Source of the DNA: Ichthyophthirius multifiliis
Lineage: Eukaryota; Ciliophora; Oligohymenophorea; Hymenostomatida
NCBI RefSeq assembly: GCF_000220395.1
Contig: NW_004086411.1
Location: 62,001-126,000, forward strand
Reading direction: 5' to 3'
DNA length: 64,000 nucleotides
A model generated the notes under the pieces. It did not search any database. It saw only the letters and a program-made list of their open reading frames with translations, and had not been told where the DNA came from. The position numbers and the translations under genes are program-made. Below, in pieces: positions 46,461-54,426 of this stretch (the first letter of the stretch is position 1; each line of letters starts with the position of its first letter).

Positions 46461-48071
46461 TCAATATATATTATTTTAATTATGAATAATTATTTATTAT
46501 AAATATTTATTTATTTTTAAAGTTAATTTTACTAATTATTTTCTATAAACTTTTACTCTTTTAATTAAAAATATATATTAAATAATACAAAAATTTTATT
46601 AGTAAGAAAGTAAATAATAAATATCTTCTATCAATTTAATTTCATTCTTATTTTATTAATCTTATGATTCTTGTAATTTTTTATTTTCAATACTATCATC
46701 ACTTAACCTTTTTTTATTTTAAAATAAAAATGTCCAATATTTAAAAGGTTAAAAAACACATTAAAATTTACCATTTTTCTCTTTTACCATTTTTCCATTC
46801 ACCTTTTTTCTCATCCCCTTCTGGATTAGTAAACCATCCTATCCCATGTTATTTTCCATTGAACCAATTTCCTTTATAAACTCTTCCTAAATAAAAAATT
46901 ATATTTTTTTTTATAAAAAAAATAAAAACAAAAATTATATACCATCAGGCCAAGTAAAAACTCCATATCCATGTTTTTTATCATCCAAATATTCTCCTTC
47001 ATATTTTCTCCCATCAGTCCACGTGAAAAACCCTTTTCCTTCCATTCTATTATCTTTCCAATCTCCAACATACATTCTATTATCTGGCCAAACATACCTT
47101 CCTTTACCATTTATATGATTTTTATAAAATTCCCCGTCATAATAAGATCCGTCTGCCCATTTGAAAATTCCTCTCCCTTCTTTTTTCCCATCTAAATACT
47201 ATCCCGTATATATAGCCCCGTCAGGCCAACATTCAGTGCCAATTCCATTTTATTTATCTTCAACCCATTCGCCTTCATATTTTGCATTATCTATATGTAA
47301 ATAAATGCCTTTTCCATTTGCTTTATCTTTTGACCATCTTCCAATATACACATCTCCATCTGCATGTATTAATCTTCCTTTACCTTCAGCCATATCTATT
47401 GAAAAATTATTTAAAAAAAATAAAAATAAAATACTATTTCTCCAATAGCCTTCATATAAACTTCCATCATTCCAATATTATTTTCCGCGCCCGTGTCTAT
47501 TTCCATTTTTCCATTAACCAATATATATAGAACTATTTTCGAATTCATAAGGACCTTAATACGGTAAGGCTTGATCTTCAGATTCATCTTCGTCATATAT
47601 AAATTCTCCTTATTGTTTTAATGTTTATTTTGCATTTATATTTAAGAAATCAGGAATTTATTTTATTAACTTTGCTACTTATGGCGGTGGTAAATGTGGA
47701 TTTTATTATATTTAATATGATGATTATGATTATTATGATTTTACTATTTCTACTTATATATTTTCGTAATTATCTTTGTTTTAAATTGATTATTTTCTTT
47801 GAATTGTTAAAGGGGGTTAAGTTTTATTTTGTTCATCTTCATTTTAGAGTGAAGCTGTGTATACTTTTGATTTATTTAAAAACAAAAAAATTAAAAAATA
47901 ATGAGAAAAAATTGTTTATGGAAAATTTAAAATTAAACCTTGTATTTATGATATACATTTGATATTATCATTATCTAAATTTTCGGCATTGTTTTCGGGC
48001 ATTTCAGGTTTTCCTTCTGTTTGTATTTAATCATTTTAAGTTTAATTGTTGCAGCAACAACTATTTCCCAT
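46461..48071 (-). CDS. MORN-repeat protein with N-terminal acylation motif
   Basis: Five exons, 47957-48071, 47435-47863, 46943-47395, 46772-46886 and 46461-46707, with introns of 93, 39, 56 and 64 nt, give 452 aa in exact frame. It begins MGNSCCC: Gly2 is a classic N-myristoylation site and the cysteines are palmitoylation candidates, so membrane anchoring is likely. After a Gln/Pro-rich linker come nine or ten MORN repeats of about 23 residues, such as [36 protein letters not shown] and [22 protein letters not shown] arrays bind phospholipids or build membrane-associated scaffolds, and ciliates carry many of them in cilia and cortex. The C-terminus beyond the repeats is basic and unassigned. 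No kinase or other catalytic domain is attached. Confidence 0.92.
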
Positions 48072-48933: not shown

Positions 48934-49536
48934 ATGGAATAAAATACTACTACTAAGCTTGTTGACAAAGAATTACTCGAATATGAGATATTTAAAGAAG
49001 GTGAAACCCCAGTTAAATTCAAGAGTCTGTTTGCAAACAAACCTTCTATAATAATTTTTATCCGTCATTTTAATTGATATGTTTGTCTAGACTTCGTAAA
49101 TGCCTTAGGAAAAATCGACTATGAAGAGACTTTTTTGAAAAATCAAATAAATCTTCAAGTTATAGGCTGCGCGAAGAAATCAGGGATAAAATCTTTTGCT
49201 AAAGATATAAAGCTCCCTATTTAATATTTATACACTGATTCAGAGAGATTTTCATATAATAAAATGGGATTAATTAGAGCAAATAAATTTAGTTAAATAA
49301 TGGGAGATGGTTAAAAATCTTAAGAAACATAAAGTTCGTTATTTGGTGGGTTTGGATGGAGCATATGGAAAACCGTTTCGAGAGGAATTTAAGGAGATGT
49401 TTATCAACTTGGGGGATGCTTTGTTGTGAATTAAAAGGCTGAAATTTAATTTGAACATGTTGATTAAAGCGCGGAAGGACATATTGGAATTGATTAGATT
49501 AAAGAATTAGCAAATAAATTTGGAAATAAATAGTGA
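48934..49536 (+). CDS. SELENOU-like: peroxiredoxin-like selenoprotein, SelU/PRXL2 (AhpC-TSA_2) family, UGA = selenocysteine
   Basis: An intronless frame of 200 codons runs from ATG 48934 to the terminal TGA at 49534-49536, with one internal TGA at 49075-49077 (codon 48). The context is IIIFIRHFN-U-YVCLDFV: a U-x-x-C redox motif at the position where PRXL2/SelU proteins carry CxxC or UxxC after the first strand. Downstream landmarks match the AhpC/TSA_2 family: LQVIGCAKKSG, LYTDSERFSYNKMGL, and GDVYQLGGCFVVNQ near the C-terminus. The family is thioredoxin-fold redox proteins. A SECIS-like hairpin 57 nt past the stop (49593-49643) supports recoding. A TGT/TGC-to-TGA error or mutation is the alternative, but the hairpin makes it unlikely. 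The stop at 49534 follows the family's natural end. Confidence 0.85.
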
Positions 49537-49592
49537 TATAGATATTTATATATTTTATTTTAAATTTGGTTATTTTTTTTATTTATTGGTTA

Positions 49593-49643
49593 ATGAAGGT
49601 ACTAATTGTAAAAATTATTTTATTAAAACAATTAGTATCTGAT
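49593..49643 (+). promoter_or_regulatory. SECIS-like hairpin in the 3' UTR of the SelU-like gene
   Basis: The 5' core ATGA (49593-49596) is followed by a 12-bp helix: 49598-49609 (GGTACTAATTGT) pairs with 49628-49639 (ACAATTAGTATC), with one G-U. The 3' core TGA(T) begins at 49640. The 18-nt apical loop starts AAAAA, supplying the conserved AA. Quartet, helix length and AA loop fit a eukaryotic SECIS element. Flanking T-rich/A-rich arms can form the lower helix. Found by eye, not folded by software. Confidence 0.8.
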
Positions 49644-49742
49644 AGAATAAATAAATAAAAAAAAAAAAAAAATTATAAAAAAAAAATGTAAATATATGTA
49701 TAATTTATGTTAAATAAGTTTATAAAAGAATTTTTTTTAAAA

Positions 49743-49838
49743 AAAATATTATTTGTAATAAAATTAATATTTTAAAATATTATTTGTAATAAAATTAATA
49801 TTTTAAAATATTATTTGTAATAAAATTAATTTTTTAAA
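49743..49838. repeat. 31-bp tandem repeat, three copies
   Basis: A unit around ATTTGTAATAAAATTAAT recurs at 49751, 49782 and 49813, a period of 31 bp, with the first two copies nearly identical and the third diverging at its end. It lies downstream of the SECIS-like hairpin, in noncoding DNA. Confidence 0.85.
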
Positions 49839-52731: not shown

Positions 52732-52805
52732 GCTCGGGTAGCTCAGTTGGTTAGAGCGTGGGTCTAATAAACCCAAGGTCGAGGGTTCAATCCCCTCCTT
52801 GAGCA
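52732..52805 (+). tRNA. tRNA-Ile (anticodon AAU)
   Basis: A 74-nt cloverleaf. The acceptor stem starts GCTCGGG and pairs with CTTGAGC (two G-U pairs), discriminator A. D arm GTAGCTCAGTTGGTTAGAG (A box). Anticodon stem TGGGT/ACCCA encloses the loop CTAATAA, anticodon AAT (read AAU, later inosine), decoding isoleucine AUU/AUC. T arm GAGGGTTCAATCCCCTC (B box). No intron and no encoded CCA, as in nuclear eukaryotic tRNA genes. Its G+C content stands out sharply. Confidence 0.97.
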
Positions 52806-53118: not shown

Positions 53119-54426
53119 ATGTCTCGTTCAGCAGAAAATAACAATGAAGAATAATTAAAATAAATAACAGCGTATTTTTCTAAGAATTTTTCAAATATAA
53201 TTATTAAAGAAAAAATTGGATAAGGTTCTTTTGGTGATATATTCAAAGCATTTGACACAAATTTAAACACTGAAGTTGCTATAAAATTAGAAAAAAGCGA
53301 AAAAGTACAATAAAAAAATTCTTTAATAAAAAAGGAAGGTTTAATATTAAAATAATTATAAGGGATTTCTAATTTTCCTTAATTATATGATATTTAAGTT
53401 AAAGAAAGTTAATAATATAATTACATTGAAATGTCTTATTTAGGACCAAATTTAGAATTATTGCGAAAAAAATAACCGAAAGGTTATTTTACTCTAAAAA
53501 TAATATTAAAAATTGCCATATAAATGATTGAAGGACTTTGGGAATTACATAAAAAAGGAATAATACACAGAGACATAAAACCGGAAAATTTTGTTATTGG
53601 TTCAAAAGGAAACCGACACAAAGTACTTATTATTGATTTCGGATTATCGAAATAATATATCGAATAAAATTAACATATTCCAGAAAGAAAAAATAAAGGA
53701 CTTGTTGGAACAGCAAGATATACAAGTATAAATTCCCACTTAGGGGTTGAATAGAGTAGAAGGGATGATTTAGAGAGTATTGCTTATTTACTAATTTATT
53801 TTGCAAAAGGAGCTTTATTATGGTAAAATTTGAGTATAAAAGAAAAAAATGAAAGGTTTAAAAAAATTAGCCAAATTAAAATGAGAACTCCTCATTCCAA
53901 AATGTGCGAAGGACTTCCAATACAATTTTTATTATTTCTAAATGATGTAAAGAGCCTTTGCTTTGAATAAGAACCAAATTATGAGAAATATTTAGATCTT
54001 TTTAATTGTTGTTTGTAAGAAAATTTTTCTTTTGATTTTTAATAAAATATATGTTATGATTGGTGTGGGAAAGATTGTGCTTAAAGAAAGTTTTCGATTA
54101 AAATTGCGAAGGCAAATCGGAACGAGGATGAAGAATAGAATGAATGTGACTTTGAAGAAAATAAATAGAATGATTATTCAATGGTGGGGAAAGTGCCTTG
54201 TTTTTTTTCAAAAGACAATTATTTGAAATTAAGTATTGATTTTGAAAATAGTAATATAAATAATTATAATTAAAATAATTTTAGAATTTATAGTAGAAGT
54301 AGTTCTTAGTTTCCTAATTAATATTCTAATGAGTGGAACTCAATATATGATGAAAAAGTTAAAGTATAGTAAATATAAGATATTTATAAAATTAAAAATA
54401 TTAATAGTTAAAAAACTATCTATTGA
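53119..54426 (+). CDS. casein kinase 1 family protein kinase
   Basis: A single intronless frame of 436 codons, 435 aa. CK1 hallmarks: glycine loop [17 protein letters not shown], Lys in [47 protein letters not shown], and the CK1-specific activation/APE region [20 protein letters not shown] followed by [15 protein letters not shown]. The C-terminal ~140 residues beyond the kinase domain are charged and Asn/Ser-rich with Cys clusters (CYDWCGKDC) and no known domain. CK1 enzymes phosphorylate primed or acidic Ser/Thr sites; ciliates have expanded this family, so the specific role cannot be set. The nearest upstream gene is the tRNA. Confidence 0.95.

Follow-up and report, generated by a model that had tools for sequence, protein, structure and literature searches.

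The window, by which we mean the whole 64-kb stretch of Ichthyophthirius multifiliis DNA analysed here, holds an intronless gene of the SelU/PRXL2 type that is followed by a SECIS-like hairpin (Table 1). The gene was read with genetic code table 6, in which TAA and TAG encode Gln. Codon 48 is its sole internal TGA. An earlier note on this DNA had described a frame of 200 aa with one internal TGA and a natural TGA end, and the translation confirmed this in all but one detail: the stop lies 153 codons past the internal TGA, not 155.

Table 1. Coordinates of the gene and of the downstream hairpin (window numbering)
Feature	Position	Strand	Basis
Intronless CDS, predicted SelU/PRXL2-type selenoprotein, 200 residues plus terminal TGA	48934..49536	+	Table 6 translation, PF13911, second copy, P. 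bursaria homologue, GC
In-frame TGA, codon 48, predicted Sec of the U-x-x-C redox site (RHFN-U-YVC)	49075..49077	+	Aligned with C44 of PRXL2B, Cys homologues, TGA in L002
TGT, codon 51, presumed resolving Cys of U-x-x-C	49084..49086	+	Cys in four aligned proteins; aligned with C47 of PRXL2B
Terminal TGA stop, codon 201	49534..49536	+	Table 6 translation
SECIS element, type I-like	49592..49643	+	Model R1, motif scan, fold z-score
SECIS part: ATGA	49593-49596	+	Motif scan/by sequence
SECIS part: helix	49598-49609 / 49628-49639	+	Motif scan/by sequence
SECIS part: apical loop beginning AAAAA	49610-49627	+
SECIS part: 3′ core T-GA-T	49640-49643	+

Because long inter-TGA stretches are common in the window (250 of 1487 reach at least 154 codons), the open frame is weak evidence by itself, and we dropped its length as an argument for a gene. 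Base composition is telling: coding-like GC on both sides of the internal TGA (28.4% before, 30.0% after, versus 7.6% in each 500-base flank) marks the gene. GC over the whole window is 15.8%. According to the accessible text of the genome paper (PMC3341644), the Ichthyophthirius genome has ~15% GC and 13 predicted 5S genes; our genome scan gave at least 17 5S matches, at least 13 of them full-length (105–114 bits). Elsewhere in the window, a tRNA-Ile(AAT) lies at 52732-52805 (+; 69.1 bits), and by eye, the neighbouring frames seem to encode a MORN-repeat protein at 46461-48071 (−) and a protein kinase of the casein-kinase type at 53119-54426 (+).

Homologues and the redox site

The product had been described as an AhpC/TSA_2 protein, and the Pfam model PF13911 (AhpC-TSA_2) indeed matches it above its cut-off (53.1 versus 27 bits). 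The match spans residues 65–178, with the U-x-x-C site just upstream. Since it begins only at residue 65, the placing of codon 48 rests on PRXL2B, two Cys homologues and a second gene copy. The NCBIfam model SelL_rel_redox (NF040769) scores 71.2 bits over residues 15–189, below its curated cut-off of 120. We considered and rejected an assignment to SelL, which we take to carry two Sec in a U-x-x-U arrangement: the window protein has one Sec codon only, with TGT (Cys) at the second position, and NF040769 stays below its cut-off.

The second copy (locus L002 on C756) was found in the same genome. It is 34% identical to the window gene and carries TGA at the identical codon (RHFN-U-FVC), again just upstream of the stretch matched by PF13911. 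A whole-genome PF13911 scan returned these two genes only, with 31.6 bits for the second copy. Searching the PDB with a profile of both copies gave two sequences at E ≤ 10, both human PRXL2B (9us9 and 9usa; best E 4.3e-8), the latter entitled a C44S/C47S double mutant. Identity to PRXL2B is 21.9% over 160 residues. In 9us9, the residue aligned with codon 48 is C44, which opens the CVVC motif (RHFN-U-YVC versus RRFG-C-VVC). The internal TGA thus stands, as had been claimed, at the first position of the family's C-x-x-C site, the C44/C47 pair of PRXL2B.

In the protein database, a single-sequence search found no homologue at E ≤ 0.001; the two-copy profile retrieved two proteins at E ≤ 10, and a four-sequence profile returned the same two at E ≤ 1. 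The homologue from Paramecium bursaria (E 1.7e-42 with the two-copy profile) and an unnamed 118-residue piece both carry Cys in the codon-48 column (RHFN-C-FVC). The Cys at codon 51 is invariant in the four aligned proteins, that is, both SelU copies and the two Cys homologues. The homology check proposed for codon 48 therefore came out with Cys in PRXL2B and both Cys homologues and TGA in the second copy: an in-frame UGA stands where homologues have Cys or Sec, the mark of a selenoprotein gene.

Could the gene once have encoded a Cys form and now show a premature stop, as a pseudogene or through a base error? A change of one base suffices to turn TGT or TGC into TGA. Because two copies as diverged as these share the TGA at the same codon, however, a base error at 49075 is unlikely, and error or decay is hard to invoke. 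The sequence after the TGA is conserved relative to the second copy and P. bursaria, the coding-like GC continues past it, and a SECIS recognised by the covariance model described below follows both copies. Taken together, these observations make a pseudogene or base error highly improbable.

Predicted SECIS elements in the window and beyond

A hairpin with an ATGA core, a 12-bp helix, a loop starting with AA and a TGA core had been noted after the stop and was found as described. Its helix comprises 11 Watson-Crick pairs and one G-U pair, its loop measures 18 nt, and 56 nt separate the stop from the ATGA. For the stretch that runs from ATGA to TGAT (51 nt), the folding energy is −13.8 kcal/mol (z −5.25), and none of 200 shuffled sequences was as stable. 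The hairpin thus presents the AUGA/GA core, helix and A-rich apical loop in the 3′ UTR by which a SECIS is recognised.

To score it, we used a covariance model, R1. The accessible part of PMC2612030 gives six SECIS elements of Tetrahymena thermophila, and five of these served to build the model. The underlying alignment (A3) leaves out the Tetrahymena SPS2 element and has TtGPx1 and TtGPx2 out of register by 1–2 positions in part of the helix. Being trained on Tetrahymena only, R1 is independent of the finding in the window; our motif scans were written with the finding known and are not. Across the 64-kb window, hairpin 49592-49643 obtained the highest R1 score (23.5 bits), with the runner-up at 16.1 bits. 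When the window and four other loci, two of them overlapping, were scanned on both strands (77,338 bases), the top three matches lay in the 3′ UTR of the second copy (25.9 bits), in the 3′ UTR of a glutathione peroxidase (GPx) gene (23.7 bits) and at the window hairpin, again followed by 16.1 bits. Within 1 kb after the stop of the window gene, the hairpin reached E 5.6e-4 and the next match 0.32.

A wider scan over 35 sources (176,030 bases) gave eight matches at E ≤ 3. Besides the three above, these were the thioredoxin reductase (TrxR) loci L036 (25.3 bits) and L038 (20.6 bits), L007 (20.7 bits), L018 (17.3 bits) and L037 (17.1 bits, upstream of that gene's end). The match in L007, near a tRNA-Ser, was taken as chance. 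An R1 element follows five of the eight genes read as UGA-bearing, two of which (L034 and L037) are uncertain; after SPS2 and the putative TrxR genes L034 and L037, R1 gave no match at E ≤ 3. With filters off, the gene strand in the 1 kb after the stop yielded 8.7 bits for SPS2, 12.8 for L034 and 15.9 for L037, the last of which (E 0.024) possibly marks a weak element.

The motif scan, run on both strands, likewise placed the window hairpin best among 13 matches (25.5 versus 18.5). Of the six published Tetrahymena elements it failed to pick up Tt3, and it gave nothing after SPS2. A search of 49500-49760 with Rfam yielded no SECIS, even with the threshold relaxed to E 10. The proposed scoring of the hairpin by SECIS models was therefore borne out by the Tetrahymena-trained model and not by Rfam. 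Fold stability does not set the SECIS hairpins of L002, L011, L036 and L038 apart (z −0.8 to −1.6), and at L002 the fold of minimum energy consists of two other hairpins. Directly 3′ of the Sec codon, no hairpin was found in either SelU copy (z +0.74 and +0.84).

For SPS2, whose Sec UGA is present, no R1 SECIS was seen in the ~1 kb past the stop. The published Tetrahymena SPS2 SECIS differs in form from the other Tetrahymena elements (accessible text of PMC2612030), and eleven Sec-containing GPx of ciliates were reported to have no detectable SECIS in the part of PMC7409322 available to us.

UGA usage and selenocysteine machinery

Some ciliates have reassigned UGA. In principle, codon 48 could be decoded independently of any SECIS, either as plain Cys or Trp or through general read-through, and a Cys reading would suit the Cys homologues. 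UGA usage in this genome argues against it: none of 32 domain matches (SepSecS, GTPase, L7Ae and Pyr_redox_dim) contains a TGA, so TGA is not a general sense codon here. The internal TGAs seen elsewhere in the genome coincide with positions known to hold Sec in GPx, SPS2 and TrxR; the GPx gene reads NVACK-U-GLT, and the thioredoxin reductases L036 and L038 end in GC-U-G. Genes of the Sec machinery are present as well. We regard an ordinary or general reading of UGA as very improbable.

Several observations concern the TrxR genes themselves. L036 (C720) and L038 (C921) end in Gly-Cys-TGA-GGT-TGA, with the Sec UGA and the stop UGA one codon apart. In both, a strong hairpin starts within ~10 nt past the Sec UGA (z −3.3 and −3.9; 0 of 300 shuffles each); its stem contains CCAACT/AGTTGG in either gene, and its position resembles that of a Sec redefinition element. 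Two further TrxR-like genes, L034 (C906) and L037 (C584), end in Cys-TGA-GCT-TGA, possibly Cys-Sec-Ala. These lack a hairpin after the first TGA and a clear R1 SECIS, and their first TGA may be a stop instead of Sec.

The earlier note had made the reading depend on tRNA-Sec(UCA), eEFSec and SBP2, and all three were found in the genome. For tRNA-Sec, a single one of 13 matches exceeds the Rfam cut-off (62.9 versus 47 bits), and its anticodon was identified by eye as TCA; ARAGORN called no gene at this locus (L003). SelD, also to be looked for, is represented by SPS2 (L013–L015 on C838), with three exon matches and the site KG-TGA-GCK (KG-U-GCK). A G-domain piece of eEFSec lies on C735 (L019/L020); its L019 part scores 147.2 bits with human eEFSec versus 95.6 with archaeal SelB. 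Each SPS2 match falls below the selD cut-off, and the eEFSec pieces fall below that of their NCBIfam model, which is expected because the matches are exon pieces. L016, which bacterial selB as query ranked first, was rejected as eEFSec after comparison with the PDB, in which it proved to be an EF-Tu of organelle or bacterial type.

SepSecS was recovered at 359.6 bits in a domain search of the genome. The SBP2 locus on C842 was located with a provisional human SBP2 domain sequence as query and then compared with the PDB, where its SBP2-like domain matched SBP2 at E 3.2e-9; the only other entry at E ≤ 1 was a designed protein (0.021). Seven L7Ae matches (PF01248) were discarded as SBP2 candidates; by eye they looked like ribosomal and snoRNP proteins, and none was C842. 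tRNA-Sec, SepSecS, SPS2, eEFSec and SBP2 are thus all represented in the genome.

The claim of a SelU/PRXL2-family selenoprotein with UGA recoding is supported by the paired TGA codons, the SECIS-like hairpin and the machinery genes. In view of the TGA shared with the second copy, the Cys in homologues, the rank of the SECIS and the machinery genes, the window gene very probably encodes a real selenoprotein of this family, with UGA read as Sec at codon 48 and as stop at codon 201; from the sequence evidence, we put the probability at roughly 0.94. By analogy with the established eukaryotic pathway, SBP2 would bind the core of the 3′ SECIS and recruit eEFSec carrying Sec-tRNA(UCA); codon 48 would then give Sec, and the UGA at codon 201 termination.

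Sec insertion is generally inefficient and depends on selenium, and UGA is the sole stop here. This would fit a regulated dual outcome, in which UGA often terminates to give a 47-residue product and Sec read-through takes place when selenium is ample. Such regulation is a variant of the selenoprotein explanation and not its denial. None of the results obtained favours a function for the 47-residue product, and the protein is conserved on both sides of the UGA (alignment with the second copy and P. bursaria), which makes a dual outcome unlikely.

Family placement and biological meaning

An AlphaFold2 model of moderate quality, computed from three sequences (pLDDT 74.6, pTM 0.74; residues 117–156 below 50) places residues 48–51 between a strand (38–45) and the start of a helix (49–58). 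In thioredoxin folds, the redox pair usually sits at such a junction of strand and helix. A C/U-x-x-C pair after the first core strand, as in SelU/PRXL2 proteins, is thus predicted. In a Foldseek search, the top rank went to an archaeal Bcp and the next two ranks to the PRXL2B entries (TM 0.59–0.60 by query length), and the best 50 matches listed were mostly peroxiredoxins. With its thioredoxin fold, the product would use the U48 selenol for attack and C51 as resolving thiol; the substrate may be a peroxide, disulfide or lipid endoperoxide, with electrons supplied by the thioredoxin or glutathione system. Human PRXL2B, the prostamide/prostaglandin F synthase, presumably reduces prostamide/prostaglandin endoperoxides; it has C-x-x-C where the window protein would have U-x-x-C.

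The window gene shares with SelU/PRXL2 proteins the AhpC-TSA_2 domain and the redox pair aligned with C44/C47 of PRXL2B, and differs in belonging to a ciliate with UGA as sole stop. In BLAST comparisons, human PRXL2C scored 83.6 bits, PRXL2B 37.4 and PRXL2A 25.0, with PRXL2A and PRXL2C represented by provisional sequences; as a lead, the branch seems nearer to PRXL2C (SelU3-like) than to SelU1. We take human PRXL2B and PRXL2C to be SelU2 and SelU3 of the vertebrate SelU classification. The vertebrate Sec forms, in contrast, were all assigned to SelU1 in the accessible text of PMC3316567. We lean slightly towards a scenario in which ciliates hold a Sec-containing PRXL2C-like (SelU3-like) branch, whose vertebrate members are Cys forms, and in which this branch was kept and duplicated in Ichthyophthirius, where the only stop codon is also the Sec codon, with Paramecium having a Cys form.

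Fish, birds, diatoms and green algae are known to have Sec forms of SelU (PMC2375036, in part). Of 36 algal genomes, more than half have SELENOU in Sec form; the one alveolate among them is Symbiodinium, for which 29 or 26 selenoprotein genes are given (PMC7539508, in part). For Tetrahymena thermophila, the accessible text of PMC2612030 gives six putative selenoproteins (two GPx, three TrxR and SPS2) with UGA as both Sec and sole stop. They resemble the window gene in this double use and in their ATGA-type 3′ UTR SECIS; unlike in the window genome, no SelU is listed among the six. The queries named there were human, Drosophila, Chlamydomonas, C. elegans, Plasmodium and Emiliania sequences, with fish and birds not among them. 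The dual role of UGA proposed for this genome is therefore supported here but not new. PMC7409322 counts five Tetrahymena selenoproteins and expects few in other ciliates, as far as its accessible text goes. The Ichthyophthirius genome paper (PMC3341644) reports a Sec tRNA, and its main text, in the part available, uses the word 'selenoprotein' zero times. Among the accessible portions of open-licence PMC papers on SelU in ciliates or on Ichthyophthirius selenoproteins, we found no report of the window gene.

With SelU, the short list of selenoproteins reported from ciliates thus very probably gains a family. Gene prediction that terminates at every UGA would miss genes such as this one. Together with the TrxR genes ending in Cys-TGA-GGT-TGA, the SelU gene would offer a clean case for asking how the ribosome separates a Sec UGA from a stop UGA, a distinction that is needed here without any other stop codon and even where the two are one codon apart.
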